This document shows, in pieces, positions 11,977-35,321 of a stretch of DNA of 43,552 nt. Position 1 is the stretch's first letter, and each line of letters begins with the position of its first letter. Under the pieces are notes generated by a model. That model ran no database searches. It was given only the letters and a program-made list of their open reading frames with translations, and was not told the DNA's origin. Origin of the DNA: an uncultured Ruminococcus sp. (GTDB lineage Bacteria; Bacillota; Clostridia; Oscillospirales; Acutalibacteraceae); contig CACXMR010000029.1 in assembly GCA_902768825.1 (NCBI GenBank), forward strand, positions 1-43,552, in the 5' to 3' direction. The position numbers and the translations under genes were made by a program.

Positions 11977-12080
11977 CGCAGTTAATACGCAGTTTCTTAT
12001 GGCATAATGCACTTTTGTCCGCAGGATAAGGGTGACAAACGCAAGGATTTGTTCTCCTTAAGCACAAAACAACAATGCTT

Positions 12081-12120
12081 GAAAGCAGTCACGAAGCAAT
12101 TCGGGGCTGCTTTCTTTTTC
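12081..12120 (+). terminator. Rho-independent terminator after the giant gene
   Basis: An 8-bp perfect stem (GAAAGCAG at 12081-12088 with CTGCTTTC at 12107-12114) runs into a T-rich tract. It lies about 105 bases after the giant gene's stop and directly before the next promoter. Confidence 0.8.
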
Positions 12121-12149
12121 TTGAAAAAAACCGTCTTTTGTGTTAAAAT
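12121..12149 (+). promoter_or_regulatory. Sigma-A promoter of unit A
   Basis: TTGAAA at 12121-12126, a 17-base spacer, and TAAAAT at 12144-12149. It starts just after the preceding terminator's T tract and lies about 35 bases upstream of the first start codon of the block. Confidence 0.8.
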
Positions 12150-12184
12150 ATTGCCATAGGACAACAGAAAAAGGAGATGAGAAA

Positions 12185-13090
12185 ATGATAACTTTTAAGT
12201 GCAGCTCCTGCGGCGGAGAAATGACCGTTTCAAGGTCCGGTGATCTTGTGTGCAGCTACTGCGGCAGCAGGTCAGTGTTTACTGATAAGGACCTCAGGGA
12301 CTATAAGGAATTCAGGATGCGGATGCTGACATATCTCAGCGAAATATCCGAAAGACCTGACCCTGATGAAACCGACAGGATCTGGAGACACGCCGAGAGA
12401 GAGAGCTTCATCATGTCTGACGGAAGACCACTTTCGGTTAACTACCTTTTCAGGGGCGAACAGAACGGAGTAAACGTGTTTACCACCAGGAAAAACGTGA
12501 TCTTTGTATTTCCGGCAGGGGAGACGAGAGCACCTGAGAGGTTTTCTCAGATGGCAGAAAAAATAGTATATCCTTCAGCGGATATCAAGGGCTTGGCGGA
12601 TTTTTTCCCCACGGTGAGCGGGGTATTCGAGCTTAAAGGCGGAAAAAGGGTGCTGTCTGTATCAAAGGATGAGGAAAGCTACCCGCTGTCGGCATTCGGC
12701 AGCCTGCCACCGGAGCATGCCGCATGGATCGTTTCAAGGCTCGAAAACCTGTGCTGCGTGCTTGAGTACAGCGATGTTTTTCACGGCGGGATAGACCTGG
12801 AATCGGTATTTATCAACGCACGGACTCATCAGGCTTATCTTCTTGGCGGATGGTGGAATTCGTCTGACTGTGAGGGCGGATCGGTCAATGACCTTATAGC
12901 CATAAGGGCGGCGGCAAAAAGGGTTACCGGAATGAGCTATGACAGTGCACCGGCGGAATTCAAGCGTTTTGTGGAAGGCGCCCCGGCTGAGGATGCCTAT
13001 GAGGATTTCAGACTGTGGGACAGAGTGATAGATGAGGGCTTCAAGGGCAGGAGGTTCAGGAAGCTTGACCTCAGTGCATTGAACCTTTGA
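12185..13090 (+). CDS. Zinc-ribbon protein with pseudokinase-like domain
   Basis: This 301-residue protein starts at ATG 12185, behind AAGGAG; an in-frame GTG at 12140 lies inside the -10 element and is rejected. Residues 1-30 form a zinc ribbon with Cys6, Cys9, Cys23 and Cys26. The remainder resembles a degenerate protein-kinase fold. The stretch HGGIDLESVFIN (from His200) sits where a kinase catalytic loop would be, and LGGWW sits where DFG would be. The catalytic-loop Asp and the DFG Asp are therefore both missing, so phosphotransfer is unlikely. It heads a unit with a vWA protein (65 bases downstream) and a PurA-like enzyme. A scaffold or sensor role is inferred. The zinc ribbon is clear; the kinase relationship is a weak call made by eye. 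Confidence 0.6.
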   Translation: MITFKCSSCGGEMTVSRSGDLVCSYCGSRSVFTDKDLRDYKEFRMRMLTYLSEISERPDPDETDRIWRHAERESFIMSDGRPLSVNYLFRGEQNGVNVFTTRKNVIFVFPAGETRAPERFSQMAEKIVYPSADIKGLADFFPTVSGVFELKGGKRVLSVSKDEESYPLSAFGSLPPEHAAWIVSRLENLCCVLEYSDVFHGGIDLESVFINARTHQAYLLGGWWNSSDCEGGSVNDLIAIRAAAKRVTGMSYDSAPAEFKRFVEGAPAEDAYEDFRLWDRVIDEGFKGRRFRKLDLSALNL

Positions 13091-13155
13091 CATGATAACG
13101 ATATACAGCGGGCATTGACTGCTGGAAATAAAACAAATCAAAAGGAGAGTTGACA

Positions 13156-14049
13156 ATGGGACATGGAAGCTATACAAGTGAAGACTGGTCGAGACTGAAA
13201 AGCAGCAAGAAGATCACGAAATCATCAGATGCAGGAAACCTGTTTGAAAAAAAGACGATGGATCCGAAGTTTGACCCCAAATACATAGCCTGCCGTGAGG
13301 CAAGGGACTCTGAAGATCATCCTGATTCAACGCCGATAATCATAGGCTTGGATGACACGGGTTCCATGGGCTATCTGGCTAAACAGATCGCAACCGAGAG
13401 CCTGCACGAAACAATGATGAAGCTTTTCTCCACAAAACCAATTAACGACCCTCAGCTGATGTTCTCGGCAGTGGGCGATGTGGTTGACCATGCTCCGCTG
13501 CAGGTTACGCAGTTTGAGTCGGATATCCGTATAGCGAAGCAGCTTCTTGATCTGTGGCTTGAGGGCGGCGGCGGTGACGGCCCGGAGGACTATCCGCTGC
13601 TGTGGTACTTTGCTGCAAAGCACACCTCTACAGACAGGTTTGAAAAGAGAGGCAAGAAGGGTTATCTTTTCACTATAGGAGACGCCGACTGCCACGCTAC
13701 GATTAGCGGAGATGATTTCAAAAAAATATTTAGTGATGATACAGGTGATCTTACCAGCCAACAGATAGCAGAGCTTGCAAAGGAGAAATACGAGGTTTTC
13801 CACATTCATATCACAAGCTCCCATGACAGTATACCGAAACAACTTAAAAAAGCTCTGCCTGGCAGGGTGATGCTAATAACCAAGAACACTGTCGATGCAC
13901 TGCCGGAGGTCATAGTCAGCACGCTGATGCTGTTTGAGGGCAAATCCATGAGTGAGGTACTGAATAGCTGGACCAATAATGTAAGGCCAATTGTGGAGAA
14001 CGCCCTCAAGACTCTGGTGATTAATACCGCTAAGGGTGTGGAATTTTGA
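13156..14049 (+). CDS. vWA-domain protein
   Basis: This is a 297-residue protein. ATG 13156 was chosen because AAGGAG ends 8 bases upstream; a TTG at 13150 is too close to that site. It has a von Willebrand factor A fold with a metal-binding MIDAS site of the DxTxS type (Asp66, Thr68, Ser70 in DDTGS) and a later GGGGDGPED motif that supplies another MIDAS acid. There is no signal peptide or membrane segment, so it should be cytoplasmic. Its opening MGHGSYTSEDW and the phrase ESTDH-like 'SEDHPDSTPII' are typical of a family that I recall from Firmicutes and phages. vWA proteins of this kind usually act as metal-dependent assembly or chaperone-like subunits. Its stop overlaps the start of the next gene, which implies translational coupling and probably a shared complex. 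Confidence 0.85.
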   Translation: MGHGSYTSEDWSRLKSSKKITKSSDAGNLFEKKTMDPKFDPKYIACREARDSEDHPDSTPIIIGLDDTGSMGYLAKQIATESLHETMMKLFSTKPINDPQLMFSAVGDVVDHAPLQVTQFESDIRIAKQLLDLWLEGGGGDGPEDYPLLWYFAAKHTSTDRFEKRGKKGYLFTIGDADCHATISGDDFKKIFSDDTGDLTSQQIAELAKEKYEVFHIHITSSHDSIPKQLKKALPGRVMLITKNTVDALPEVIVSTLMLFEGKSMSEVLNSWTNNVRPIVENALKTLVINTAKGVEF

Positions 14050-15224
14050 CGGACAAAAGGGTGATTGCCGTTATCGGAGCAAATTTCGGGGACGAAGGTA
14101 AGGGCCTTGCGGTGGACAGCTTCTGCGCTGGATCAGCCCAGGCACTTGTGGTGCGTCATAACGGCGGTGCACAGGCGGGTCATACTGTTGAAACCGAGGA
14201 CAAGCGCTTTGTTTTCCACCAGCTTTCCTCAGGTTCCTTCAGAGGAGCGGATACCTTACTTGCAAAGACCTTCCTTCCCGATCTCTACAAGCTGGAGGAG
14301 GAGATCCTGGCATTCAGGGATGTATCTGGCTTTTCACCGAGGGTGTATGCCGATCACAGAGCAAGGGTGACCGTGATAGACGATATCCTGCTGAACATGG
14401 CTCTTGAGACAAGCAGGGGCAGAAACCGTCACGGCAGCTGCGGCATGGGCATTAATGAGGCAGTGCTGAGAAACGAAGCGGGCTTCTGGCTGACAGTAGG
14501 CAAGGTTGCCGGCATGAGTGCCGGAGAGCTTGCTTCCGAGCTTTTTCGCATACGGCGGGAATACGTTATCCCCAGACTGTCTTCACTTGGCATCAATGAC
14601 GGTGGAGAATTTAGCGATCTGCTCAGCAGCGAAAACGTCATAGTCAATGCTTCCGAGGGGATGATGACCGGAATTGGTTATCTCACACCCGTAAATGGAC
14701 TGTCTGAAATGACAGATGGCAGGGAAAGGATCGTTTTTGAGGGAGCTCAGGGGCTTTTGCTGGATTCAGAGAATAAGCGTTTTGCGCCTCACCTTACATC
14801 CTCACGCACCGGCATTAAAAACCCGTTGGAGCTTTGCCGAGATGCAGGAATAAGTCTCAACATGGCGGTCTATGTAATGAGGAGTTATGTTACAAGACAT
14901 GGTGCCGGAGAGCTTCCCGGGGAGTGCGAGGCATCCGGACTGGGAGACATCGGGCCTGACCGCACTAACATAACCAACAGATGGCAGGGGAGCTTCCGCT
15001 ATGGGCGCTATCTTTCTCCGGAAGAGCTTGCAGCTGCGGTCTTGGAGGATTGTGATGGCTTTGACGGGGACGTGTGCCTGTTTGTCACCCATCTGAATGA
15101 GACAAGCGGCATGATACGATTCTGCACCGGCGACATTCCCGCAGCAGAGCTGCCAAAGCATCCGGCTTTTGCAGGAAGGATAGGCAAGGTTTGCTGTTCT
15201 TATTCCCGGTTTGGTCTCAGTTGA
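14046..15224 (+). CDS. Divergent adenylosuccinate synthetase-like enzyme
   Basis: This 392-residue protein probably starts at TTG 14046, which overlaps the vWA stop as TTGA, with AAGGG about 8 bases upstream; GTG 14061 is an alternative. PurA couples IMP, Asp and GTP to adenylosuccinate. Recognisable PurA motifs are the P-loop-like GDEGKG with Asp16 (E. coli Asp13 equivalent), GHT with His46 (His41 equivalent), FEGAQG and TRHGAGE (usual TRVGEGP). Other key regions differ. The first loop reads GANFGDEGKGL instead of GAQWGDEGKGK, and the usual arginine-rich TTGRPRR aspartate-binding loop is replaced by TNRWQGSFRYG. It is also shorter than ordinary PurA (about 430 residues). A paralogue with an altered substrate, rather than the housekeeping purA, is inferred. 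Phage PurZ is a further possibility but is not supported by a specific motif. Confidence 0.8.
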   Translation: MTDKRVIAVIGANFGDEGKGLAVDSFCAGSAQALVVRHNGGAQAGHTVETEDKRFVFHQLSSGSFRGADTLLAKTFLPDLYKLEEEILAFRDVSGFSPRVYADHRARVTVIDDILLNMALETSRGRNRHGSCGMGINEAVLRNEAGFWLTVGKVAGMSAGELASELFRIRREYVIPRLSSLGINDGGEFSDLLSSENVIVNASEGMMTGIGYLTPVNGLSEMTDGRERIVFEGAQGLLLDSENKRFAPHLTSSRTGIKNPLELCRDAGISLNMAVYVMRSYVTRHGAGELPGECEASGLGDIGPDRTNITNRWQGSFRYGRYLSPEELAAAVLEDCDGFDGDVCLFVTHLNETSGMIRFCTGDIPAAELPKHPAFAGRIGKVCCSYSRFGLS

Positions 15225-15290
15225 CCTGTCTGTAAAAACAAGCTTTTTAGCATAATGACAATATCTTTTTCGGGGGCTGGTCTAAAGCTG

Positions 15291-15319
15291 TTGATATTAC
15301 GGCTTTGACGTAGTATAAT
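15291..15319 (+). promoter_or_regulatory. Sigma-A promoter of the TIR gene
   Basis: TTGATA at 15291-15296, a 17-base spacer, and a perfect TATAAT at 15314-15319. The start codon follows 35 bases later. Confidence 0.85.
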
Positions 15320-15354
15320 CATAATGAGTAATCGTATGCATTGGAGGTCGTAAA

Positions 15355-18267
15355 ATGTCAGTTTTTAAGTGTAAAATGTGCGGCAATGACATTGATATAA
15401 CGGGCGGCACAACCGTCTGTGAGTGTGAGTATTGCGGCACTGAACAAACTGTCCCCGATGTCAGTGATAATAAAATAAGGTCTGTATTTATCCGGGCAAA
15501 TATTCTCCGCCTGAAGGGGTCCTTTGATAAGGCTGCACAGCTCTATACGAAGCTTCTTCCGGTTTGCCCAAAGGAACCGGAGGTAAGCTGGGGACTCCTG
15601 CTCTGCAAGTATGGTGTGGAATATGTGGAGGATCCCAGAACCTTTGACATCTCTCCCGTGTGCCGCAGACCCTCGGAGGAGAATGTCCTTGAGGACGAGC
15701 TGTATAAGAAGGTTATGCAGCTTGCTCACTCGGCTCAGCGTGAGATATATGAGGAAGAGGCTAAGAAGATCGAGAGTACCCGAAGGGCTGTTATCGACAG
15801 AGCCTCATCGGAGAAGTCCTCGGAGGTATTCATCAGCTGCCTTGACTCGGATAAAGCGGCTGTCAGTGCCGCCAGGGAAATATGTGCGGGACTTCGCCAA
15901 AAAGGAAAAACCGTGTTCTGCGCCGCTGTTGATTTAAAGGACAAGCCCCGGTCCGAAAGAGAACCTATGATTTATGCGGCTCTTAACAGTGCGGAGATAA
16001 TGCTTGTTCTTGGCAATGAAGCAGGAAGCTTCATTGATCCGGGAATCAGGAATGAATGGGTGCGCTTTTTGAGGCTTGCCGAACAGGACAACAGGAGAGT
16101 GCTTGTTCCCTGCTACGGTAACATGGATGTCTATGAGATGCCCGAGGAGCTTGCCCGGCTCAATTTCAGGAGAATGGACAAGCAGGGCTTTGTTGAAAGC
16201 GTGACAGGAGATGTTCTGTCCGGCAGCGTCAGAAATCCGGAGGCTTCAACATCCCAGGAAAGAGTTGTCCCTGAAGAGAAGCCTGCTGTACAGGTTAGCA
16301 AAGCAGAGGACGAAAGGGACGTTGTAGCGGGAGATATCGGCAATGGCTTTGTGCAGGACAAGCCAAAGGTACTGCACACTGAAGAAAGCAAGCAATCTGC
16401 CAAAGAAGAAAAGCCGGTAATTGAAGATAAGCCTGCCAAAGAGGAAAAGCCGGTAATTGAAGATAAGCCTGCCAAAGAAGAAAAACCCGTCATAGAGGAA
16501 AAGCCGATCATTGAAGAAAAGCCTGTCACCAAGGAAACAGCCCCTGTTACAAAGCTGACCATCCCTGATGCTGCGGCTGCCGCCGACCCGAATCCTGATT
16601 ATGCAGAGGCGATGAAGCTGTTAAGGACCTTCAACCCTGACAGCGACGACCTTGTGCAGGAAAAGGAACTGCTGACTAAGGTAAAGGACCGTTTGTCAGC
16701 AATACCGGATTATAAAAATTCACTCAGGTACATAATGGCCTGCAATGACAGGATAAAGGAGATTGACTATCAGAGAGCGGTTGCCTGCTATGGCATGGGA
16801 AACATGAACGAGGCATGGCTCATCAACAACAGAAATGCCTTTATTGCCCTGGGAGATTATAAGGAATCTGCCGAATACGCCAGGATGTGCGATGAGCGCA
16901 TAAGGATGATGCAATACGACGAGTCATACAAGCTCTATGATTTTGCGGAAAAGAACATAACGCTGAATAAGCACCTGACTGCGCCTATATTGAAGCAGTC
17001 GATAGATGATCTGGAAAAGGCAAAGGCATTATTTATCAAGTTAAAGGATTATAAGAAGTCCGAGGATTACCTCAAAAAGCTCAATGTGCTGCTCGAGGAT
17101 GCAAACGAGAGCTACACCGAGATGTGCAGGCAGGCGGTCTATGAAAAGAGCAAGGCTGCCAAGAAGCGCAAGCTTATTGCTATTATCGGCACTTCGATAG
17201 TGGCTGCGGCTATAGTTGTTTCGGGAGTGCTGACCACGGTGCTGTATATCATACCCGAATCAAAATACAACAATGCGTTGTCACTGATGGACGAGGGAAT
17301 GTATAATAAGGCCGCTGATGTGTTTGACGAGCTGGGGGATTACAAGGATTCCCATAAAAAGAAGATCTCCGCTCTTGCACTTAATGCCTTTACTGGATTG
17401 TCCGATAGCCAAAAGTCCGACATCAGGGCAAGGGGACGGATTATCTCTTCCGGACAGGTCTTTGCCGCAACACCGCTGATAATCGGCGTCAAGCCCGACG
17501 GGACTGTCGCCGCCGTTGGTGCGGACAATGAGGGCATGAAAGCGGTTAGCGGCTGGAACGGTATTACATCCCTGTCAGTAAGGAAGGGGCATATCGTCGG
17601 CCTGAAGACTGACGGCACTGTATTGGCTGCCGGCAATAACGAATATGGTCAGTGCGATGTTTCCGGCTGGACGGGTGTGGTGGAGATAGCCGCCGGCTCG
17701 TACCACACTGTGGGACTGATGGCAAACGGCACTGTGGCCGCTGTGGGAAGCACTACCTATGGACAGTGTAATGTATCCGGTTGGAAGAATATAAAGGCAA
17801 TAGCAGCCGGAGATGATTATACAGCGGGCCTGACAGGAAACGGCACGGTGCTTGTGACCAGGATAACGGTGCCTGATGACGCAATGCAGTATGACACCTC
17901 CTCATGGAGTGACGTTGTGGCTATATCAGCAGGTGACGACCATCTGGTGGGGCTCAAAGCTGACGGCACTGTCTGTGCTGTGGGTCTTAACGATTCAGGT
18001 CAGTGCGATGTTTCCGATTGGACAGGTATTGTTGCGATCTCAGCGGGCAGCGCCCACACGGTAGGACTCAGGGCGGATGGTACTGTGGTTGCTGTGGGAA
18101 ACAATTATTCCGGCAAGTGCAGTGTATCCGACTGGACTGATATTGTAGCGATCAATGCCGGATACGATCATACTCTCGGATTGAGAGCAGACGGTACGGT
18201 CCTGGCTACCGGCAACACCGGCACAGCCGAGGCGGTGTTGTCCTCCTGGCATCTCAAAAATTCATGA
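15355..18267 (+). CDS. Zinc-ribbon/TIR/transmembrane/RCC1-repeat protein
   Basis: A 970-residue protein starting at ATG 15355 behind GGAGG. Order of parts: zinc ribbon (Cys6, Cys9, Cys24, Cys27); a TPR-like helical region (about 35-150); a TIR domain (about 155-285) with VFISC, the EPMIYAALNSAEIM stretch and Glu234 in RNEWVRFL, matching the catalytic Glu of NADase TIR domains; a charged linker with 12-residue repeats; more helical GDYK[ED]S units; one membrane helix (about 606-633); a further TPR-like unit; then seven RCC1-like repeats. The KKRK just before the helix puts the N-terminus inside by the positive-inside rule, so the TIR domain is cytoplasmic and the propeller outside. NAD+ cleavage triggered by an external signal is inferred. 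It stands alone between its own promoter and a terminator. Confidence 0.85.
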   Translation: MSVFKCKMCGNDIDITGGTTVCECEYCGTEQTVPDVSDNKIRSVFIRANILRLKGSFDKAAQLYTKLLPVCPKEPEVSWGLLLCKYGVEYVEDPRTFDISPVCRRPSEENVLEDELYKKVMQLAHSAQREIYEEEAKKIESTRRAVIDRASSEKSSEVFISCLDSDKAAVSAAREICAGLRQKGKTVFCAAVDLKDKPRSEREPMIYAALNSAEIMLVLGNEAGSFIDPGIRNEWVRFLRLAEQDNRRVLVPCYGNMDVYEMPEELARLNFRRMDKQGFVESVTGDVLSGSVRNPEASTSQERVVPEEKPAVQVSKAEDERDVVAGDIGNGFVQDKPKVLHTEESKQSAKEEKPVIEDKPAKEEKPVIEDKPAKEEKPVIEEKPIIEEKPVTKETAPVTKLTIPDAAAAADPNPDYAEAMKLLRTFNPDSDDLVQEKELLTKVKDRLSAIPDYKNSLRYIMACNDRIKEIDYQRAVACYGMGNMNEAWLINNRNAFIALGDYKESAEYARMCDERIRMMQYDESYKLYDFAEKNITLNKHLTAPILKQSIDDLEKAKALFIKLKDYKKSEDYLKKLNVLLEDANESYTEMCRQAVYEKSKAAKKRKLIAIIGTSIVAAAIVVSGVLTTVLYIIPESKYNNALSLMDEGMYNKAADVFDELGDYKDSHKKKISALALNAFTGLSDSQKSDIRARGRIISSGQVFAATPLIIGVKPDGTVAAVGADNEGMKAVSGWNGITSLSVRKGHIVGLKTDGTVLAAGNNEYGQCDVSGWTGVVEIAAGSYHTVGLMANGTVAAVGSTTYGQCNVSGWKNIKAIAAGDDYTAGLTGNGTVLVTRITVPDDAMQYDTSSWSDVVAISAGDDHLVGLKADGTVCAVGLNDSGQCDVSDWTGIVAISAGSAHTVGLRADGTVVAVGNNYSGKCSVSDWTDIVAINAGYDHTLGLRADGTVLATGNTGTAEAVLSSWHLKNS
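16399..16542 (+). repeat. 36-base tandem repeat in the TIR linker
   Basis: Near-identical 36-base units start at 16399, 16435 and 16471, followed by a decayed copy. They encode AKEEKPVIEDKP-type Pro/Glu/Lys repeats, expected to form an extended charged spacer between the TIR domain and the helical part. Confidence 0.9.
17482..18246 (+). repeat. Seven RCC1-like repeats
   Basis: The (D/N)GT(V) signature recurs with codons starting at 17497, 17611, 17725, 17839, 17962, 18076 and 18190. The spacing is 114 bases (38 residues) except for one unit of 123. Each unit carries a HxVGL-type strand, DGTV, an AxGxNxxGQC-type turn and a W-based strand. Seven copies fit one closed seven-bladed propeller. 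Confidence 0.85.
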
Positions 18268-18276
18268 CAGGTCAGA

Positions 18277-18299
18277 GGGACTTTTTGGAAAAAGTCTCC
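18277..18299. other. Hairpin without T tract
   Basis: GACTTTTT (18279-18286) and AAAAAGTC (18289-18296) form an 8-bp perfect stem with a 2-base loop just after the TIR gene, but no T run follows. It may stabilise the 3' end of the mRNA. It resembles, in sequence, the terminator at 33060. Confidence 0.4.
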
Positions 18300-18359
18300 C
18301 CGAAAACGCTGTCCCCGGCTGATAGTTAATCCGGAACATCAACAATATATTTATCTAAT

Positions 18360-18392
18360 GTCCTGATTCCGTTAGGGGTCAGGACTTTTTTT
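18360..18392 (+). terminator. Rho-independent terminator after the TIR gene
   Basis: GTCCTGA (18360-18366) pairs with TCAGGAC (18379-18385), followed by seven T. It separates unit B from unit C. Confidence 0.9.
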
Positions 18393-18449
18393 ATGCTTAT
18401 GCCGGGCTTTCTGCGCTGTTTGTGTGATCGCTGCGGGGTGCCTGGGGTA

Positions 18450-18478
18450 TTGACATGATAGATATTTTAATCTATAAT
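18450..18478 (+). promoter_or_regulatory. Consensus sigma-A promoter of unit C
   Basis: TTGACA at 18450-18455, a 17-base spacer, and TATAAT at 18473-18478: a perfect match to both consensus hexamers. It lies 66 bases before the Hsp70-like gene and has no other promoter of this quality downstream until 27971. Confidence 0.9.
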
Positions 18479-18544
18479 TTACTAATAGGGTTAAAAAATT
18501 TAATCATAATATAACAAAAGTAAGTTAAAAAGGAGGGGGTCAGC

Positions 18545-20368: not shown

Positions 20369-20406
20369 TTACAGAGACAGATCACTATAACAAGGAGGCA
20401 AAAAAT

Positions 20407-22497
20407 ATGTATGAGGATTTTGAAGCGGAAGTCAGGGTTCCGGAGCAGCACACCGAAATGATGGACGTTCCACAGGTGACCCAGGACCAGCCATGCGATA
20501 CCGGTTCTGCTTTTGCTGAGTATGACAGCATCAGGAACGAGGTTATCGAGATCACCGAAAACCCCGCAGCGGTAGTCTATGGTCTTGAGGGCAATGATCT
20601 GCCTGAGGGAGTAAACGCCACAGCCTATGAGTATACAAAGGGTGACTATGACGTATTCAGGTCGAGGCTGATGGACCTTGACGGTGACGGTATCTATGAG
20701 ACAACGGAGATCACCCGCATAGGCGCTTTCGGTCCTAATGCCGTGATTTATAGAAGAGATCTGGACGGAGACGGCAGGACCGACAGGGAGGATGAGTTCC
20801 ATTTCAGCTCCTCAGTAAGCTATGACATTGCGTCTAACTCAATGAAGGAGACTGTCCACGTTGTTGACAGAGTAGTGCGTGTTGATTCCGACCGTGACGG
20901 AAGCTTTGACGTGATACAGCTCCAGATAAACGATAAGCCACTGAATCGTGAGGGCTTCAACAGCAGATACTTCCATGCTGAGGGTTCTATGGTCGTGGAC
21001 GAGAGCACCGGAGAATGGCGCAAGGTCATCGAAGCTCCCACCACTAAGGAACAGCTTGACCAAAGGGAAGCTGATATGGCAAGGGTTACGGAGGCTCTTA
21101 ATACTACCGGAGCTGCCGTCTATGATGATACAGATTTCACCGAGGATGATGACGTCGCTGAGGATGAGAGCACGGTCTATACAACCGAGCAATCAGAGCG
21201 TAACGACTTTATTGAGGACACCGAGCCTGAGGATGCTGACGAGGACGAGGATATCGAAGACAGCACAGAGGACACTGAAACCGATGATGCTGAGGATAAA
21301 CCCCCTGTCGTTACAACCGAGCAATCAGAGCGTAACGATTTTATAGAGGACACCGAGCCTGAGGATGCTGACGAGGACGAGGTTGTCGAAGACAGCACAG
21401 AGGACACTGAAACCGAAGATGCTGAGGATAAAACCCCTGTCGTTACAACCGAGCAATCAGAGCGTAACGACTTTATAGAGGACACCGAGCCTGAGGATGC
21501 TGACGATGACGAGGATATCGAAGACAGCACTGAGGATACGGAATCAACTGACGAGGCAGGGGATGACAAGGGCGACGAAGCTGATGACGCAGAGGGTATG
21601 TCCATATCCGGCGATACCGCCTATGGGGATGTGAATGTTTTAGTGAACGAAACTGCGGATACCAACGGCGATGGCTTTGAGGATTACGGCAAATTCAAGT
21701 ATAGCATGGACACAAACGGCGACGGTGTGGATGAGATCTATTACTGGGAGACCTATGACCTGGATGCAGACGGATATGTAGATACCGTTAATGTGCTTGC
21801 CGACCTTGACAGCGACGGACGCTATGAGAGCGCCGAGCAGTATTCCTTTGACGCATCAAGCCTCAACTATGAGCTTGTGCAGAGCATTGATCTGTCTGAC
21901 CCGGAGAGAGGCACCTATTCCTTTGAGCTTGACAGCTTTGATCCTTCGAGCGCTGATATGTCAAAGGTGGATGGCAACCCCGGCGATGTGATGGATCTCT
22001 GGGAGTATCAGGGTGATTCCTTCCGGTGCGCCATCTATTCACAGAAATTCATCATTGAAGAGTTTACCGGCGTGGAACTGGACATAGAGGATCTGGTCAG
22101 CTTTGCAAAGCAGGAGGGCTGGTTCAGCGATAACGGAGGAACCTCGCCTGAGGATCTTAACAAAATACTTGATGCCTACGGGATAGACAACGAAATGGGC
22201 TATAATTATGATATATCCGATATACAGACCGCTCTGCAGAAGGGCGACAAAGTGATCGTTGCACTTGACAGCGGAGAATACTGGATGGGTGAGAGCAATG
22301 ATATATATGCTCCTGTTGACGGTGCAGATCATGCTGTTGAGGTAATAGGCCTTGACTGGAGCGACCCGGAGAAGCCCATGGTCATACTTAACGATTCCGG
22401 CGCAATGACCGGAAAGGGCGAGATGGTACCGGTGGATACCTTCATGGCGGCATGGGGAGACAGCGAACACTTAGCCGTGATTGCCCACAGAAAATGA
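20407..22497 (+). CDS. C39-like papain-fold protein with calcium-type loops and acidic repeats
   Basis: This 696-residue protein starts at ATG 20407, behind AAGGAGG 8 bases upstream; the frame is open further upstream inside the Hsp70-like gene, but without a ribosome site. Residues 90-180 hold EF-hand or dockerin-type loops (DLDGDGIYETTE, DLDGDGRTDRED, DSDRDGSFD), and more lie at 415-480 (DTNGDGFED, DLDADGYVD, DLDSDGRYE). Between them are three 44-residue acidic repeats. The last 160 residues look like a C39-type cysteine peptidase: Gln535 and Cys541 in QGDSFRC, His642 in ADHAVEV, and Asn662/Asp663 in LNDSG. No signal peptide or membrane helix is visible, so it may act in the cytoplasm. Peptidase activity, possibly controlled by Ca2+, is inferred from these residues only. 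Confidence 0.75.
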   Translation: MYEDFEAEVRVPEQHTEMMDVPQVTQDQPCDTGSAFAEYDSIRNEVIEITENPAAVVYGLEGNDLPEGVNATAYEYTKGDYDVFRSRLMDLDGDGIYETTEITRIGAFGPNAVIYRRDLDGDGRTDREDEFHFSSSVSYDIASNSMKETVHVVDRVVRVDSDRDGSFDVIQLQINDKPLNREGFNSRYFHAEGSMVVDESTGEWRKVIEAPTTKEQLDQREADMARVTEALNTTGAAVYDDTDFTEDDDVAEDESTVYTTEQSERNDFIEDTEPEDADEDEDIEDSTEDTETDDAEDKPPVVTTEQSERNDFIEDTEPEDADEDEVVEDSTEDTETEDAEDKTPVVTTEQSERNDFIEDTEPEDADDDEDIEDSTEDTESTDEAGDDKGDEADDAEGMSISGDTAYGDVNVLVNETADTNGDGFEDYGKFKYSMDTNGDGVDEIYYWETYDLDADGYVDTVNVLADLDSDGRYESAEQYSFDASSLNYELVQSIDLSDPERGTYSFELDSFDPSSADMSKVDGNPGDVMDLWEYQGDSFRCAIYSQKFIIEEFTGVELDIEDLVSFAKQEGWFSDNGGTSPEDLNKILDAYGIDNEMGYNYDISDIQTALQKGDKVIVALDSGEYWMGESNDIYAPVDGADHAVEVIGLDWSDPEKPMVILNDSGAMTGKGEMVPVDTFMAAWGDSEHLAVIAHRK
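21181..21576 (+). repeat. 132-base tandem repeat, three copies
   Basis: Nearly identical units begin at 21181, 21313 and 21445 (period 132 bases, 44 residues). Each starts TTEQSERNDFIEDTEPEDAD and continues with mostly Asp and Glu. Such repeats can change in copy number by slippage or recombination and would form a long acidic spacer. Confidence 0.95.
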
Positions 22498-22544
22498 TCG
22501 TAAATAAAAGCATCAAAGTATAAGAGACGGACAGGAGGATCACT

Positions 22545-23075
22545 ATGTCTGAATATATAAAAATGAATGAAATACTTGCTCAGATAAGGACGAGCAAGCC
22601 TTTCCGCAGCCTGCCGCTGGGCTATGTCAGCGGTTATCCCGTTGTTACAGTAAAAAACGGCCGTGTGTGTGCGGTCGTTCCCTTCCTGAGGTACAGAATC
22701 ACAGGTGAAAAGGACAAGACTCAGGTTTTCCCCATATGTTACCTTTTTACCTATGCAGTAAAGGATCAGGTCATAGTATCGGTTGAGGACCTCAGAAAAA
22801 ACAAGGCATTTGAGGGAGTGGACTTTGCCCGCCCTATCGGGTATTTCCGCCACGAGGCGATACAGGATCTCACAAAGGAAGAGTACAGGGAGAAGCAGCA
22901 GGAACTGTATGCTCTCTATGACAGCTTTATTGCGGCTCTCATCGACGGGGAGAAATATCCTGTACAGTCACTGAAAAAAGCTCAGGAGCTTTTTGGTCTC
23001 CTGGTTGAGCCATGCCTGAAGCCCTTTTATGAGACCCTTTATCCTAATTTTTACAAAAACATTATCAAATCATAA
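22545..23075 (+). CDS. Hypothetical protein, 176 residues
   Basis: ATG 22545 follows a GGAGG site. I do not recognise the family. The protein is soluble and of mixed alpha/beta composition, with a strand-rich first half (YPVVTV, VCAVVPFLRYRI) and a helical, Tyr-rich second half (YREKQQELYALYDSFIAALI). No signal peptide, zinc site or membrane segment is present. It lies 47 bases after the C39-like gene and about 100 bases before the HerA-like ATPase in the same direction, so it is probably a dedicated partner of unit C. Confidence 0.8.
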   Translation: MSEYIKMNEILAQIRTSKPFRSLPLGYVSGYPVVTVKNGRVCAVVPFLRYRITGEKDKTQVFPICYLFTYAVKDQVIVSVEDLRKNKAFEGVDFARPIGYFRHEAIQDLTKEEYREKQQELYALYDSFIAALIDGEKYPVQSLKKAQELFGLLVEPCLKPFYETLYPNFYKNIIKS

Positions 23076-23176
23076 CCCTGTTAATTCTGGTTTTACAGGA
23101 ATAGTGTGGAGCCTTTTTGACTGTAAGGAAGCGCTCCCCCAGTAACAGACCCAAAGAAAAGGAGGTACAGATAGAT

Positions 23177-25822
23177 ATGGCAGTAAGAGATCTGTCATTC
23201 AGAGATGTACTGACGGGAATAAACAGCGACAATCTGAAAATTGACAACCCGATAAAGGTTCCGGACAACCAGTTCCATGAGCTGCTGGATATGGTTATTG
23301 AGAGAAGCTCGCTGGAGAGTATCGGACAGAGAGAAAAGTTTTATCTTGATGAGGAGAAGCCGATTCTCGATATAACATGGCTGAGAATAGTGAGGTTGCC
23401 CGTCAGCCCGTCGAATGTGACCGATTACAATATGTTTGACAGGTGGCAGGGAGTGCTTTCGTCAATGCACGAATGGGGCTACAGGTTCTATTTCCTGCTG
23501 CAGAGAAAGGACGGAGAGACTAAGATCTATCTGGGAGTGCGCTCACAGAATGAGTTCTTTGACGCAAACGACGCACTGGAACAGGTGGAAGAGGCTACGT
23601 CAGGCTCCATGCCGGGAATTGAGCTGAAAAAGCTTGACGAGAAGGAGAGGGCTATCCTCAAGGTAAACCTGGATCAGTGCAACTCTCTGGGAGCGGTGAC
23701 CGGACTGCCCTCGTTCTTTGAAGAGAATAAGCCGGGAGTGCTGCAGACCCTTGACCCCCTTGCATTTGGAATAAGAGGAAAGGACGGTGTTGAAAGGGAC
23801 TATAACCTTCTGATAATAGGGGACCCGATTTCTGACAGCGACACCACGGACATAATGAACCGTATGCGCACACTGGGCAGCGAGATTCATTCCTTCGTGC
23901 AGAGGTCGGTCAACGAGTCTAACACAAGACAGGAGAGCAAGCAGAAGGGCCTTGGAGCAGGTGCGGGCACTATAATGGCAGGCGTGGGATCAAATGTTTC
24001 CAACCTTGTGGCAGATATAGCAAAGCACACCATACCCATAGCAGGTCCGCTGATAGGCTTGGCGTTCTCCGCTGTTGGCGGAATCATGACAAGTGCCAGC
24101 AAGAGCATAAGCGAAAGTACATCACTGGCGGTGACCACCACATATCTTGACAAGTTTGCACAGTATGCGGAGCAGCTCACTGATATACACGTGGAGAGAA
24201 TGAAGGAAGGCAGAAATCTTGGCTTCTGGAACGTGGGCATTTATGTTCTGGGTAAGGACAGGAAGGATGTCAACACGGTAAATGGAATGCTGCGCTCGAT
24301 TTATTCCGGCAGGAACACCTATGTGGAGCCTATCAGGCTTCATGTGCTGAAAAGATCCTCCGGTGCCATGGAGATAGTCAAGGATTATTTCGATCTGATA
24401 CCAACTATGAATACAAGTGTCGAGGGTATGACGGAGGATACAGTCTGGCACATTTTTGGCAAGAACTATCAGTATCTGAGCACACCTATGAATACAAAGG
24501 AGCTGGCACTTGCAACTTCACTGCCAAGGAACGACGTGCCGGGACTGAGATTTGTGAGATCGGCAGTGCGCTTTGCCAACAACCCGCCGGTCATTTCAGG
24601 AGAATCCATCACACTTGGAAACATAGTCAATATGGGTGTTGAGCAGAACGCTCCCTATAAGATCAACCACAACGACTTGGTAAGACACGCTCTCGTGGTC
24701 GGCTCCACAGGCTCAGGCAAGTCCTGCTCCTGCAAGAGGATAATCACAGAGGTGCTGGGTCACGACATTCCCACGCTGATAATAGAGCCCGCAAAGGACG
24801 ACTGGGTCAGATGGGCGATCAAAATGAACGAGGTGCTTCCGGAGAAGAACCGGTTCCGCATCTATATGCCCGGGCATGATGAGTTTGAGGGAGTAAAGCT
24901 GGGACAGCTGAAGCTGTCACCCTTCCAGCCTGCGGGAGTGAGCGGCGCCAAGGTAGATATGGTGTCAAGGTGTGAGAATCTTATCTCGCTGATAAATGCC
25001 AGCCTTCCTTCTGAGGACGTTCTTCCGGTGCTGATCGATGAGACGATATACTCTCTCTACGCTGCGGCATATAAGGATAAGTTTACCAGCGGAGCAATGA
25101 TGGATCAGCAGAGTATATATCCTGTGCTGTCGTCTCTGTCGGCTATGAGCAACCGCATAATGCAGCAGAAGGGTTATGAAGAAAAGGTCAGGTCAAATCT
25201 TTCCACCTGCCTTGAGACACGCTTCCAATATCTGACAAGAGGCACCAGGGGCAAGCTGCTCAACGTGTCCAGATCCACAGATTATTCAGAGCTTTTTGAC
25301 CATCCTACGGTCATCAACATCAGCGGTATATCTGCGCCAAAGGACAAGGCGCTGATCATGTCAGTGCTGCTGCTCTCACTGTATGAATATAGAAAATCGA
25401 AGTATGCAAACGATCTGGAATACAGGAAGCTTGCACAGGAGAACAAGCTGTTGCACATGACTCTTATTGAGGAAGCCCATAATGTACTGCTGAAGCCTGA
25501 GGGCAGCTCCTCGTCAAATCCCCAGAAGGTAGTGGCGGATCTCTTCACCAATATGCTGTCTGAGATCAGAAGCTACGGTGAGGGTCTTATGATCGTGGAT
25601 CAGTATCCGACAAGACTTATTCCCGATGCCATCAAAAACACAAACTACAAGATAATCCATCGCCTTGCGTCTCCTGATGACGCAAAAGTCATGGCGGCAA
25701 GCGCTGCCCTGAGAGAGGAGCAGCAGGCTCTGATACCGTCACTGTTCCCCGGAAATGCGATAATATTCGGTGACAGAGACGATGCAGCGGCATGGATACA
25801 CATGAACAAAACCGATATTTAG
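23177..25822 (+). CDS. HerA/FtsK-type ATPase
   Basis: An 881-residue protein. ATG 23177 was chosen because AAGGAGG ends 11 bases upstream; a TTG at 23117 lacks such a site. The C-terminal half is a HerA/DUF87-type RecA-fold motor: Walker A GSTGSGKS at 509-516, a following LIIEPAKDDW strand, Walker B with Glu765 and Glu766 in TLIEEAH, and a later VDQYPTRL segment. The N-terminal half (about 1-480) is not recognised. It contains a Gly/Ala-rich hydrophobic stretch at about 256-315 that could enter or cross a membrane. HerA-type motors form hexamers and translocate DNA or other polymers. The following gene encodes a membrane-anchored protein 12 bases downstream, so a membrane-associated motor is possible. 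Confidence 0.85.
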   Translation: MAVRDLSFRDVLTGINSDNLKIDNPIKVPDNQFHELLDMVIERSSLESIGQREKFYLDEEKPILDITWLRIVRLPVSPSNVTDYNMFDRWQGVLSSMHEWGYRFYFLLQRKDGETKIYLGVRSQNEFFDANDALEQVEEATSGSMPGIELKKLDEKERAILKVNLDQCNSLGAVTGLPSFFEENKPGVLQTLDPLAFGIRGKDGVERDYNLLIIGDPISDSDTTDIMNRMRTLGSEIHSFVQRSVNESNTRQESKQKGLGAGAGTIMAGVGSNVSNLVADIAKHTIPIAGPLIGLAFSAVGGIMTSASKSISESTSLAVTTTYLDKFAQYAEQLTDIHVERMKEGRNLGFWNVGIYVLGKDRKDVNTVNGMLRSIYSGRNTYVEPIRLHVLKRSSGAMEIVKDYFDLIPTMNTSVEGMTEDTVWHIFGKNYQYLSTPMNTKELALATSLPRNDVPGLRFVRSAVRFANNPPVISGESITLGNIVNMGVEQNAPYKINHNDLVRHALVVGSTGSGKSCSCKRIITEVLGHDIPTLIIEPAKDDWVRWAIKMNEVLPEKNRFRIYMPGHDEFEGVKLGQLKLSPFQPAGVSGAKVDMVSRCENLISLINASLPSEDVLPVLIDETIYSLYAAAYKDKFTSGAMMDQQSIYPVLSSLSAMSNRIMQQKGYEEKVRSNLSTCLETRFQYLTRGTRGKLLNVSRSTDYSELFDHPTVINISGISAPKDKALIMSVLLLSLYEYRKSKYANDLEYRKLAQENKLLHMTLIEEAHNVLLKPEGSSSSNPQKVVADLFTNMLSEIRSYGEGLMIVDQYPTRLIPDAIKNTNYKIIHRLASPDDAKVMAASAALREEQQALIPSLFPGNAIIFGDRDDAAAWIHMNKTDI

Positions 25823-25834
25823 GAGGAATAGCAA

Positions 25835-26524
25835 ATGTCCCCTGTCGAGATCACAGTAGTTATCATTGCAGCCGTAATCGGTGTTATTGCCCTTGTCATG
25901 CTAATCATCGTTCTTGCTAAGCTGAAGGCTTTATCCCGCAATAATCCTAATAAGCCCCCCAAGCCCGCTAAGCCGGACTTCAGGGAGATGCCCGTAATGC
26001 CTCCTCAGCCACAGCCGGTAAATAATACTCCAGTACCTGCGACAGCACCGTCTCAGCCTGAAAACATTGTTCCTGCACCTGCGGCAGCACCTCAGGCTGA
26101 CGGTTTTTCCGCTATGCTTGCTGCCAATGCAAAGGACTTTGAGGGACTGTATGAGAGCCTTTATGTTTCCTGCTCTGATGTGGGTTCCTTTGATGCTGAC
26201 GCCTACCACGAGTGGTGCAGCAGGGCAGCCATGAGCAAGGACAGGAGCTTTGCCGAAGCCTTTGCAAGGAGCTTTACCGACAGCGAGGATACCGAGCATT
26301 GCAAAAACAGCTCTGTAAGGCTTCTTGGCTGCATTTCGGCAGCGGGAATAATCAGGGTAAGTCAGGCGGGCATAAAGCTTGGCCCCGGTCAGGTAGATCC
26401 TGAGCTTTTCACCTGTCTTAACGCCCAGAATATCCAGGGAAGAGGCTGCACTGTAGTAAAGCCTGCCTGGGTAGCCGGCAGCAAGGTGATCGAGCCGGGA
26501 GTCGTCATGGCGGACAATTCTTGA
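25835..26524 (+). CDS. Single-pass membrane protein with Pro/Ala linker
   Basis: A 229-residue protein starting at ATG 25835 behind AGGAGG. One hydrophobic helix covers residues 3-32 with no signal cleavage site, and is followed by a basic turn (KLKALSR). A Pro/Ala/Gln linker runs to about residue 88, then a Cys- and Ser-containing globular domain of about 140 residues (DFEGLYESLYVSC, EWCSRAAMSKDRSFAEAF, GQVDPELFTCLN). The positive charge after the helix suggests that the large domain is cytoplasmic. No family was recognised. Its gap of 12 bases to the HerA-like gene suggests that it anchors or recruits that ATPase. Confidence 0.8.
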   Translation: MSPVEITVVIIAAVIGVIALVMLIIVLAKLKALSRNNPNKPPKPAKPDFREMPVMPPQPQPVNNTPVPATAPSQPENIVPAPAAAPQADGFSAMLAANAKDFEGLYESLYVSCSDVGSFDADAYHEWCSRAAMSKDRSFAEAFARSFTDSEDTEHCKNSSVRLLGCISAAGIIRVSQAGIKLGPGQVDPELFTCLNAQNIQGRGCTVVKPAWVAGSKVIEPGVVMADNS

Positions 26525-26543
26525 AAAACGGAGCTATAAGACA

Positions 26544-27902
26544 ATGAAGTGTAATATTTGCGGAACCTATAACGGAGACGAACTTGCCTTTTGCAGCTTC
26601 TGCGGAGCAAGTCTGACACCTGCAGACAAGAGCGGTGGGGGCGAAAAATACTGCAGCTTCTGCAAAAAGACTTCACCGGCAAGCTCGCTTTTCTGCGGCT
26701 ATTGCGGAAGGAAGCTGACGGGCACAGCTGAGTCCCCAGATAACGAAGGTCCTGCCCCCATGTATGTGCTGAACATGGTTGATAAATATGTGGGTGACAT
26801 AATGATCGGCATTTCCCAGTCCGGAGGTATCCTGAAGATCTTTTCTGACAGGATAGAATACCATATCACCAGGAGCGGAAATATGGGAAGCATGGCAGGT
26901 GTGCCAGGACAAAACAGCAACAGCCCCTCCTCCGGGGGCAGCGGCACTGTGGAGACCTACAGGTATAATGAGATGGAGGGCTGCTATGTTTCCAACTACC
27001 TCAACAGTATGCCGGGGATGCTTTTTGTTCTCAAGGACGGAACACGCTTCAAGTTTGTTTGCGTTTTTGGTTCATACGACCCGAATACGATCATCTGTAC
27101 CATAAACGGTTTTATCGACAAAGCAAAGAGACAGGAGGAATACCAATATCAGGCGGCTTATCCATGGTACGGTCAGCAGATGTCTCAGCCGATCTATCAG
27201 CAGCCCGGACAATATCAGCAACCTATGCCTCCCCAGCCGGTATTTCCGCTGCCAACGGCGCAGGAACCACAACCTATGCCGCCCCAGCCGGTATTTCCGC
27301 TGCCAACGGCACAGGAACCACAGCCCATGCCTCCCCAGCCGGTGTACCCGCTGCCAACGGCGCAGGAACCACAACCTATGCCGCCCCAGCCGGTGTACCC
27401 GCTGCCAACAGCGCAGGAACCACAACCTATGCCTCCCCAGCCGGTGTATCCGCAATACGGACAGGGAGTGCCTCCTATGCCGCCGCAGCCAGTGTATCCC
27501 CAGTACGGACAGGGATTACCTCCCATGATGCCACAGCCGGTATATCCCCAGTACGGACAGAACGTCCCTCCAATGCAGCCTCCTGTACTTTCTCAGGGTG
27601 CCGCTCAGGACAAATATGGGAGATACAGCTTTGTCATGGAGATAAGCGGCTTTATCAGGGTGGATGAGCAGTATGTGGCTATCCTTGGAGCCGTCAGAAA
27701 GGGCAATGCCGAAAAAGGGACGGTGCTGAATGTTATCAGCAGTAACGGCCTGGACAAAGGTTCCTTTGAGGTCAAGAGCATTGCCGTCAACAAAGCTATA
27801 AGCGAAAACGCAGCTGCGGGAGACGAAGATACGGCATTCCTCTGCGTTTTCTCGCCTTCGCTTATCAAAGCAGGGGACATAGCCTGCGGTTTAATTGTAT
27901 AG
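26544..27902 (+). CDS. Double zinc-ribbon protein with Pro repeats and EF-Tu domain II-like barrel
   Basis: This 452-residue protein starts at ATG 26544 with a GGAG site; the gap to the previous gene is 19 bases. Two zinc ribbons come first (Cys3, Cys6, Cys17, Cys20, then Cys37, Cys40, Cys51, Cys54). Next is a beta-rich domain (about 72-205) with a GILKIFSDRIEY strand that could be PH-like. A Pro/Gln repeat follows (about 227-348). The last 95 residues look like the beta-barrel of translation-factor domain II: strands around YVAILGAVRKGNAEKGTVL, a central KSIAVNK turn, and SLIKAGDIACGLIV at the end. It closes unit C before a terminator. Binding to a translation-type partner is only a guess from the fold resemblance, and no GTPase domain is present. 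Confidence 0.75.
   Translation: MKCNICGTYNGDELAFCSFCGASLTPADKSGGGEKYCSFCKKTSPASSLFCGYCGRKLTGTAESPDNEGPAPMYVLNMVDKYVGDIMIGISQSGGILKIFSDRIEYHITRSGNMGSMAGVPGQNSNSPSSGGSGTVETYRYNEMEGCYVSNYLNSMPGMLFVLKDGTRFKFVCVFGSYDPNTIICTINGFIDKAKRQEEYQYQAAYPWYGQQMSQPIYQQPGQYQQPMPPQPVFPLPTAQEPQPMPPQPVFPLPTAQEPQPMPPQPVYPLPTAQEPQPMPPQPVYPLPTAQEPQPMPPQPVYPQYGQGVPPMPPQPVYPQYGQGLPPMMPQPVYPQYGQNVPPMQPPVLSQGAAQDKYGRYSFVMEISGFIRVDEQYVAILGAVRKGNAEKGTVLNVISSNGLDKGSFEVKSIAVNKAISENAAAGDEDTAFLCVFSPSLIKAGDIACGLIV
27222..27580 (+). repeat. Proline-rich tandem repeat, 51-base and shorter units
   Basis: Four 51-base units start at 27222 and encode PMPPQPV(F/Y)PLPTAQEPQ. Three or more 45-base-class units (PMPPQPVYPQYGQ type) follow. 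The lack of stop codons in other frames here is a by-product of the repeat. Confidence 0.9.
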
Positions 27903-27908
27903 GATATC

Positions 27909-27953
27909 CAGGCTCCCAAGCGTCCGTCACAGCGTCCGGGAGCCTGATTGCTT
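27909..27953 (+). terminator. Hairpin terminator closing unit C
   Basis: CAGGCTCCC (27909-27917) pairs perfectly over 9 bp with GGGAGCCTG (27938-27946), 6 bases after the last stop of unit C. The tail (ATTGCTTTAT) is only moderately T-rich, so termination may be partial. Confidence 0.65.
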
Positions 27954-27970
27954 TATGAAGGAGAAATGTT

Positions 27971-29035: not shown

Positions 29036-29664
29036 AAACAGGCTTGATTTTTGATATGGACGGAACACTCTGGGATTCCTCAGAAAACGTCGCCGCATCG
29101 TGGACAGAAAAGCTCAGGGCGCTGGGCTATGATGAGCTGATAGTCACGAGACAGGACATAATGGGGGTTATGGGTCTGACGATGGACAGGATAGCGGAAA
29201 TAATATTTGCACGTCAGCCTGAAGAAAAGCGCATGGAGCTGCTTGACCAGTGCTGCGAGTATGAAAACGATTATCTCCGCAAGCACGGAGGTGTGCTTTA
29301 TCCCGATCTGGAGAAGACTCTCCTGCGTCTCAGAGAGAATTATTCACTCTATATAGTCAGCAACTGCCAGAAGGGTTACATCGAGGCTTTCCTGGAGCAT
29401 TTCGGTTTTGGGAAATATTTTGATGACATTGAGTGCTACGGCAACAACCTGCTGGAAAAGGGTGACAATATTGCCCTTCTCGCCGGGAGGAACGGTCTTG
29501 ACAGGGCGTTTTACATCGGAGACATTCAGGGAGACTATGACGCCACCATGAAAGCCGGGTATGAGTTTATCCATGCAGCCTACGGCTTCGGAAGGATAGA
29601 GCAGAGTGTGCCGGAGCTTGAAAGATTCAGAGATCTGCCTGAGCTGCTGGCAAAAATAATCTAA
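29032..29664 (+). CDS. HAD-family phosphatase
   Basis: A 210-residue haloacid-dehalogenase phosphatase of the phosphoglycolate phosphatase-like subgroup. Motif I is FDMDGTLWDS, with Asp8 as nucleophile and Asp10 as general acid. Motif II is IVSNCQ near residue 106. The motif III Lys is in LLEKGDN near 144, and motif IV is YIGDIQGDYD near 163. An alpha-helical cap lies between motifs I and II. The start overlaps the dehydrogenase stop (ATGA). That coupling suggests that it acts on the dehydrogenase product or on a lipid made from it, as in the Bacillus heptaprenylglyceryl phosphate route, but no prenyltransferase gene is seen nearby. Generic sugar or glycolate phosphate remains possible. Confidence 0.85.
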   Translation: MKTGLIFDMDGTLWDSSENVAASWTEKLRALGYDELIVTRQDIMGVMGLTMDRIAEIIFARQPEEKRMELLDQCCEYENDYLRKHGGVLYPDLEKTLLRLRENYSLYIVSNCQKGYIEAFLEHFGFGKYFDDIECYGNNLLEKGDNIALLAGRNGLDRAFYIGDIQGDYDATMKAGYEFIHAAYGFGRIEQSVPELERFRDLPELLAKII

Positions 29665-35310: not shown

Positions 35311-35321
35311 AGGTGGTAACT

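Follow-up and report, generated by a model that had tools for sequence, protein, structure and literature searches.

The window analysed here (contig C29, 43,552 bases) comes from a 2.49-Mb draft genome of an uncultured Ruminococcus sp. and carries ten plus-strand genes (g1–g10) between positions 12121 and 27946. The initial annotation had counted nine genes, overlooking g7 (22545–23075), and had joined them into one system of three units; its statement that all of them run in one direction agrees with the list of open reading frames (ORFs). Judging from sequence comparison, the block appears to consist of separate gene modules side by side, without sign of a single three-unit system. We tentatively favour the reading, to which we give slightly less than an even chance, that g1–g4 (units 1 and 2) and g5–g10 (unit 3) are two unrelated neighbouring modules, and that g5–g10 is a version of a conserved Hsp70–HerA system in which a membrane-tethered Hsp70/GrpE-like switch would gate a hexameric motor and a peptidase. 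Two observations carry this reading. Among the 80 closest loci, the g8-type motor gene comes with an Hsp70/actin-like ATPase gene wherever the contig permits, and in most loci outside Chloroflexota this pair is found together with a peptidase, which belongs to either of two unrelated kinds.

Unit 3 and its separation from g1–g4 in the genus

Close orthologues of g8 (83–90%) occur, besides the own genome, in four of 118 other relatives: G048, G043, G055 and G051. In a sample of the phylum, the own genome and 4 of 298 others match g8 at E ≤ 1e-100, and the named records with the closest g8 are rumen metagenome-assembled genomes, mostly Ruminococcus. The gene order g5-g6-g7-g8-g9-g10 is complete in G048, and the other three genomes agree with it as far as their contigs extend. 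Because unit 3 lies on contig C11 of G048 and unit 1 with g4 on contig C16, the modules are separable. Moreover, g1, g2 and g3 were found in 0 of the 80 g8 loci, also when six frames on both strands were searched, and no g5–g10 gene was labelled in any of 18 loci fetched for unit 1.

These comparisons do not bear out the earlier proposal of one immune system made up of all three units and sensing through a TIR NADase, which we now regard as highly improbable. The units are adjacent and on the same strand, and some Hsp70-like proteins carry fused RCC1 repeats resembling those of g4; however, the units have promoter-like sites of their own, and a terminator-like hairpin separates g4 from g5. Repeated co-occurrence of at least five families, which the initial annotation had suggested as a check, was seen for unit 3 alone and not for the whole block. 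In the neighbourhood comparison the units largely occurred independently, with unrelated partners, the outcome that it had named as speaking against a single system. The TIR domain that it had noted was found in g4, but g4 is not conserved with unit 3, and the NAD+/TIR idea concerns g4 only.

An Hsp70-like gene is paired with the motor gene across phyla

A g8 alignment was used to scan one genome per species (84,980), giving 378 pattern matches and 313 confirmed relatives. The locus set consisted of the best 80 of the 313 confirmed stretches, 41 of which are at least 20 kb long, and was distributed over Bacillota (43), Bacteroidota (20), Chloroflexota (13) and Cyanobacteriota (3), with one locus lacking a phylum label. 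Phylum labels were taken from record titles; for a few, among them bacterium F082, Candidatus Egerieousia and Candidatus Colivivens, the phylum is the one we presume. Four loci (L045, L046, L047 and L079) are the genus genomes G055, G043, G048 and G051 again, and relatives were also present in named strains from the gut (Blautia sp. An249, Diplocloster modestus and [Clostridium] citroniae). Relatives covering 87% of g8 were found on two cyanobacterial plasmids.

A search of plus-strand frames with an iterated profile placed a g5-family member near g8 in 72 of the 80 loci; in the remaining eight (L045, L046, L050, L061, L079, L096, L098 and L115), the upstream side ends at a contig end. According to ORF-caller labels, 66 loci have a member on the g8 strand, 53 upstream and 13 downstream, and this same-strand member lies within 300 bp in 40 loci and within 3 kb in 63. 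As a control, the same profile gave 0 matches in 220,569 bases of 18 other genus loci. Taken alone, 52 of 69 g5-family members (one per locus) matched Pfam HSP70 at E ≤ 0.001. The window protein itself stays below the Pfam cut-off (12.2 bits against 20.6, E 0.051), and a PDB sequence search with it returned no Hsp70 chain; the Hsp70-like label given to it earlier has support from its relatives, of which 6 of 7 in a smaller set pass the HSP70 cut-off. A single member of the 69 reaches an HSP70 match of 1.2e-253. On the guess that this match belongs to L078, the nearest g5-family member there may be a DnaK; L078 holds a second member too. In a Mantel test on 67 loci, which left out eight loci without an Hsp70-like gene and five that were too short, the distances of g5 and g8 were strongly correlated (r 0.886; 0 of 2000 permutations), also within three phyla (r 0.81–0.90), which fits descent as a pair.

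The g5 family varies in its additional domains: FHA was matched by 10 of the 69 members, RCC1_2 by 4, Sel1 by 3 and leucine-rich repeats by 3, and MreB_Mbl and ParM_N were also matched, by 9 and 8 members, respectively. For part of Bacteroidota and Cyanobacteriota, Hsp70/actin-like ATPase would be the safe label.

Some loci hold further features. The C-terminal half of the Bacteroidota g5-family protein at L112:8023-9984 matches the PADLOC LeoA/LeoBC models (1.8e-9). In L066 (9708-12080) and L089 (6010-8550), the Hsp70 part is fused to RCC1 repeats like those of g4, and hydropathy listed no transmembrane (TM) segment. Multi-copy acidic low-complexity proteins (family c7) follow the motor gene in L095, L106 and other Chloroflexota loci.

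The motor, the GrpE-like protein and the two peptidases

The assignment of g8 as a HerA-like motor was confirmed by a DUF87/HerA Pfam match (1.9e-8), which begins at residue 500, past a long N-terminal part, and by fold and sequence profile. Walker A (G512, G514, K515) and the Walker B EEAH are invariant in 52 aligned relatives. When the g8 model (pLDDT 82) was compared with the PDB, it matched HerA (E 1.6e-15), anti-phage HerA complexes and VirB4 (TMt 0.75–0.79), and the sequence profile matched nine PDB sequences named HerA, HerA-like, DUF87 or plain ATP-binding protein.

The end of g9 looked like a GrpE beta-domain by eye. Comparison of its AlphaFold2 model (pLDDT 88) with the PDB gave 122 matches, of which numbers 1–11 were all GrpE (E 1.4e-3 to 5.5e-2); number 12 was unrelated (E 1.3). 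Global TM-scores against GrpE were low (0.22–0.41), so at most local domains agree. Hydropathy placed an N-terminal TM segment in g9 and in 21 of 31 g9 relatives. Since the partner gene encodes an Hsp70 relative, we consider a GrpE-type role likely for g9. The c2 family, encoded upstream of the Hsp70-like gene in Bacteroidota and cyanobacteria, resembled a second GrpE-like family by eye, but we make no such claim, since hhalign with real GrpE gave P 0.15 and its reversed decoy gave 0.09; g9 (35 loci) and c2 (16 loci) never occur in one locus, which is a pattern only.

The C39 label of g6 fared like that of g5: the window protein stays below the Pfam cut-off (E 0.0081), and the catalytic Cys, His and Asn are kept in 27, 28 and 30 of 30 aligned rows. 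Hydropathy detected no TM segment in g6. A C39-like peptidase of the g6 family was found in 35 of the 80 loci and a zincin-like peptidase in 26 (c0 in 22, c16 in 4), so that 61 loci have one kind or the other and none has both. The HExxH motif is present in 23 of 24 c0 proteins. In Bacillota (43 loci), a C39-like peptidase is present in 34 loci and a zincin in 4, with no locus having both, and the chance of zero overlap is 126/123,410 (~0.001), a figure that ignores relatedness. Second C39-like copies at L048:13336-14121 and L086:2779-3435 have lost the catalytic Cys and His; each of these loci also has an intact copy.

A possible chaperone-gated motor

We propose that g5 would serve as a switch, detecting a client or signal and fixing a threshold, with a tail that varies between lineages (FHA, RCC1, TPR or, in Anabaena, GTPase modules). 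The membrane-anchored g9 would act as a GrpE-type exchange factor driving ADP release from g5, and the ATP/ADP cycle of g5 would load or release the ring of the g8 hexamer. This hexamer would then pass protein (or DNA) substrates to the C39-like peptidase g6, or unleash it, and g6 would cut them. Most likely, the outcome would be a response to stress or to invaders that takes place at the membrane. As for the wider role, we infer one in immunity, conflict or stress, as the initial annotation had supposed for the whole block; conflict is favoured because unit 3 is patchy, has plasmid-borne relatives and has its parts swapped.

Several results weigh against this reading. The g5 family is unevenly supported: 17 of the 69 members, L112 among them, have no Pfam HSP70 match at E ≤ 0.001, and because the un-iterated g5 search reaches only 32 Bacillota and 5 Bacteroidota loci, the family rests on the iterated profile elsewhere. 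Shared descent, too, would make g5 and g8 vary together. No fold match of g9 falls below E 0.001, neither g9 nor two of its relatives matched Pfam GrpE, and when a g9 profile was compared with 14 real GrpE sequences the expected region aligned at P 0.2, which is not significant. None of the 13 Chloroflexota loci has either peptidase. At 17 places with distant g8 relatives (mostly 25–30% identity), the g5 profile scored at least 24 bits in four (L024, L031, L032 and L043) and 12–14 bits in two, with no match in the remaining 11, some of which are cut; the Hsp70–HerA system as described holds for the closer g8 branch. In a PADLOC search of g1–g10, matches other than the HerA-type and mad8 motors were weak (E ≥ 0.0024). 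Neighbour proteins were scanned for 64 of the 148 listed, hand-picked and nearly all plus-strand; the 25 families listed of the 48 matched include one integrase and no restriction enzyme, so there is little evidence for defence-island enrichment around unit 3 among the neighbours scanned.

One of the four distant places, L024 on an Acinetobacter plasmid, has its HerA relative in the company of genes for a WYL regulator, HEPN and dynamin, two large Lcl_C proteins and an integrase, and is possibly a mobile defence locus.

The main rival is that unit 3 is a secretion or peptide-maturation machine, in which the motor would energise export, the Hsp70/GrpE-like proteins would keep the cargo unfolded and the peptidase would cut leaders. 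C39 domains cut leaders in bacteriocin export, and g6 has a C39-like domain; VirB4 structures are among the matches of the g8 model; a DUF692 gene, of the type associated with ribosomally synthesized and post-translationally modified peptides, lies downstream in three of five cyanobacterial loci (L022, L023 and L091); and one of the multi-copy Chloroflexota proteins has a weak Frankia_peptide match (9.1e-6, 26 of 48 bits). However, no other type IV or VII secretion gene was found among 18 window proteins scanned, g6 lacks a TM segment, and no leader-peptide gene was seen in a listing of ORFs of at least 80 amino acids. We consider this explanation rather unlikely, if the most serious of the alternatives.

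The combination of Hsp70, a GrpE-like protein and a peptidase also resembles quality control, and the c1 family, with LytTR regulators, lies inside 22 of the 80 loci. Unit 3 could accordingly be imagined as a stress or proteostasis module linked to the membrane, which would remove secreted or membrane proteins once they are damaged and would play no part in conflict; its patchy spread among relatives and in the phylum sample, its plasmid-borne relatives and the variation of its parts between lineages make this unlikely in our view. Both HerA and VirB4, the motors that g8 resembles, work on DNA. Together with the MreB_Mbl and ParM_N matches in the g5 family and the copies on cyanobacterial plasmids, this would suit a DNA-handling device that segregates or processes a mobile element, with g5 as an actin-like filament and g8 as a DNA pump. 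We find such a device very improbable, as the fold matches of g9 and the peptidases better suit a chaperone and Pfam detected no nuclease in unit 3.

Comparison with known systems

HerA-type motors are known in DNA repair, in conjugation and in anti-phage complexes with nucleases or SIR2. The conserved partnership of such a motor with an Hsp70-like ATPase, a GrpE-like protein and a swapped peptidase suggests chaperone-switched motors, perhaps acting on proteins, and the gene pairing and mutually exclusive peptidases make the idea directly testable. It is possible, although doubtful, that unit 3 belongs to an undescribed, multi-phylum class of membrane-bound machine, with a HerA/VirB4-like hexamer under the control of its own private cycle of Hsp70/GrpE type and with either C39 or zincin, never both, as the output enzyme. 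If this were true, it would be, to our knowledge, the first HerA-family motor partnered by a chaperone switch and a protease rather than by a nuclease or an NAD-consuming enzyme. We place unit 3 among NTPase/chaperone-gated modules with HerA-family motors, with a fair chance that it forms a separate class. Searches of the open full texts in PMC, where most subscription papers are not included, listed no description of the Hsp70–HerA–peptidase set or of the vWA–PurA cassette.

Passages from Kaur et al. (2020; PMC7159879) describe GAP1-N2 DO-GTPase systems as predicted conflict systems with NTPase thresholding. According to these passages, such systems have HSP70 with its exchange factor GrpE, are membrane-linked and have firmicutes among their hosts; unit 3 would share this theme through its Hsp70-like protein, which is supported by relatives, and its GrpE-like protein, which is so by fold and not by sequence profile. 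In contrast, g1–g10 gave no DO-GTPase match at E ≤ 1 with a library that includes these models. No match to GAP1 or FNIII-repeat proteins turned up in them either, although Pfam may lack GAP1 models. In the same passages HerA occurs in a reference title only, and there is no mention of C39 or DUF87; unit 3 would add the motor and the alternating peptidases. In the Anabaena relative of unit 3 (L022), a DO-GTPase match was weak (25.5 bits, with 27 needed), and a GTPase fused to Hsp70 is present as well.

The EccE3 HerA/VirB4-like ATPase of extended Type III-A CoCoNuT operons has a beta insertion of variable length, and these operons hold Hsp70-like domains as well (Bell et al., 2024; PMC11090510). 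In the g8 model, two long strands (242–257 and 309–324) bracket a low-confidence stretch (251–315), a possible likeness to EccE3 by description only. Differences from CoCoNuT are the lack of any McrB, HEPN or PP2C match in g1–g10, and of any McrB match in eight other scanned window proteins, and the main text of PMC11090510 has 0 occurrences of GrpE, C39 and zincin. The anti-phage HerA systems (SIR2-HerA/Nezha and DUF4297-HerA) and HerA-NurA share the HerA motor with g8 by fold and sequence profile, but no SIR2, DUF4297 or NurA match was found in g1–g10. The best PADLOC match of g8 was mad8 of MADS (4.8e-16, profile positions 4–298 of 314); no other MADS protein was matched in g1–g10.

A cassette of g1–g3 and the TIR gene g4

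Among 119 relatives including the own genome, g1, g2 and g3 (the last at ≥49% identity) were each found in 17, and the g1-g2-g3 cassette recurs in about 17 of the 119, so far in this genus only. In the 18 unit-1 loci fetched, the cassette is complete in 14, with g2 doubled in nine of these; three loci are cut by contig ends and L192 has no labelled gene. Besides the window, g4 adjoins g1–g3 in two of the 18 (L175 and L176).

The zinc ribbons reported earlier for g1 and g10 were seen, but their Pfam matches are below cut-off in the window proteins. For g2, the vWA label has the invariant residues in its favour and no match in Pfam or in a PDB sequence search. A pseudokinase likeness of g1 was by eye only and was dropped, there being no kinase match in Pfam or PDB sequences, and neither the kinase nor the PP2C that would stand beside vWA in a TerY-P triad was matched in g1–g3.

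The nucleotide enzyme named in the initial annotation is supported by the Pfam match of g3. A search of a phage collection with g3 matched 226 records, the best-ranked at 35% identity over 93% of g3, and the annotated matches are PurA-like or 2-aminooxy adenylosuccinate synthetase. TRHGAG, TNxxNxWQ/FQG and TH.N-type motifs are shared with two phage PurA/PurZ-type proteins, and the genome's own PurA, on contig C12, is 33% identical over residues 4–136 of g3. By these comparisons, g3 appears closer to phage PurA/PurZ-type proteins than to the PurA of its own genome. Both NCBIfam cut-offs are unmet (PurZ 50.4 bits with 300 needed; PurA 94.5 with 402 needed). According to PMC12783734, phage PurZ/PurZ0 acts on dGMP en route to 2-amino-dA. 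Unlike the phage enzymes, g3 is chromosomal and lies in a cassette with g1 and g2. The g3 profile matched the own genome alone among 299 genomes of the phylum (E ≤ 1e-50); viral contigs scanned with g8 and g3 contained no relative, and a viral origin is thus without support.

In g4, Pfam detected TIR_2 (29.0 bits, cut-off 28) and six RCC1_2 stretches, and the N-terminal CxxC pairs are a zinc ribbon by eye only. A g4 profile matched ten ORFs in nine g8 loci; judged by their coordinates, nine of these ORFs encode members of the g5 family and one a member of the g9 family.

Layout of the block and neighbouring genes

The features of the block are listed in Table 1. The starts of g1, g6 and g8 were corrected and are probably at 12185, 20407 and 23177, respectively, as judged from homologues. 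GC content is level throughout the block (0.48–0.53), and an Rfam scan of 11900–29700 gave no match at gathering score.

Table 1. Genes and transcription signals of the g1–g10 block
Feature	Coordinates	Strand	Description
Promoter-like site, unit 1	12121..12149	+	TTGAAA-17-TAAAAT, TG ahead of second hexamer; 10/12
g1	12185..13090	+	N-terminal zinc ribbon (invariant C6, C9, C23, C26) and conserved domain, fold without assignment
g2	13150..14049	+	vWA-like; invariant D68, T70, S72, T120, D178
g3	14046..15224	+	PurA-superfamily enzyme; Adenylsucc_synt 6.6e-34
Promoter-like site, unit 2	15291..15319	+	17-bp spacer; 11/12
g4	15355..18267	+	N-terminal CxxC pairs, weak TPR, TIR (158-274), one TM segment near 607, RCC1 repeats
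Terminator-like hairpin	18360..18385	+	After g4, before third promoter-like site; 11 pairs then T run; strong
Promoter-like site, unit 3	18450..18478	+	TTGACA-17-TATAAT; 12/12
g5	18545..20368	+	Hsp70/actin-like ATPase; GIDFGTSST and DMGAGTTD motifs; family in 72/80 loci
g6	20407..22497	+	Asp-rich repeats (EF-hand-like by eye), acidic linker, then C39-like cysteine peptidase; family in 35/80 loci
g7	22545..23075	+	176-amino-acid conserved protein, fold without assignment; family in 32/80 loci
g8	23177..25822	+	HerA/VirB4-like motor; Walker A GSTGSGKS, Walker B IEEAH
g9	25835..26524	+	N-terminal TM segment and GrpE-like domain; predicted Hsp70 nucleotide-exchange factor
g10	26544..27902	+	Double zinc ribbon (27.0 vs 27.3 bits), Pro-rich linker, conserved C-terminal domain; family in 17/80 loci

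The three promoters with 17-bp spacers claimed earlier are present as sites; as a class, however, such sites are no commoner than in shuffled sequence (24 found against 20.4 ± 5.3), so only the best matches carry weight. Those at 18450 and 15291 rank as the top two, and that at 12121 is level with three others at 10/12.

In G043 and G055, g11 and g12 follow the end of g10 immediately, which is also the arrangement of the window; no g10 was found within 1.5 kb ahead of g11 in G051, and G048 gave no g11 match. An argument for shifting (mobile) sites was dropped, the downstream site being common to G043, G055 and the window. Here g11 (Fe-ADH family) and g12 (HAD family) occupy 27971–29664 and may be read together with unit 3 in G043 and G055. 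Elsewhere in the window, positions 112–11976 encode a giant protein of 3954 amino acids, probably an adhesin of the cell surface, which has SpaA, Cna_B and CBM26 domains. The protein of 1311 amino acids encoded at 35313–39248 combines HD, EAL and GGDEF domains and is a large regulator of the cyclic-di-GMP type.

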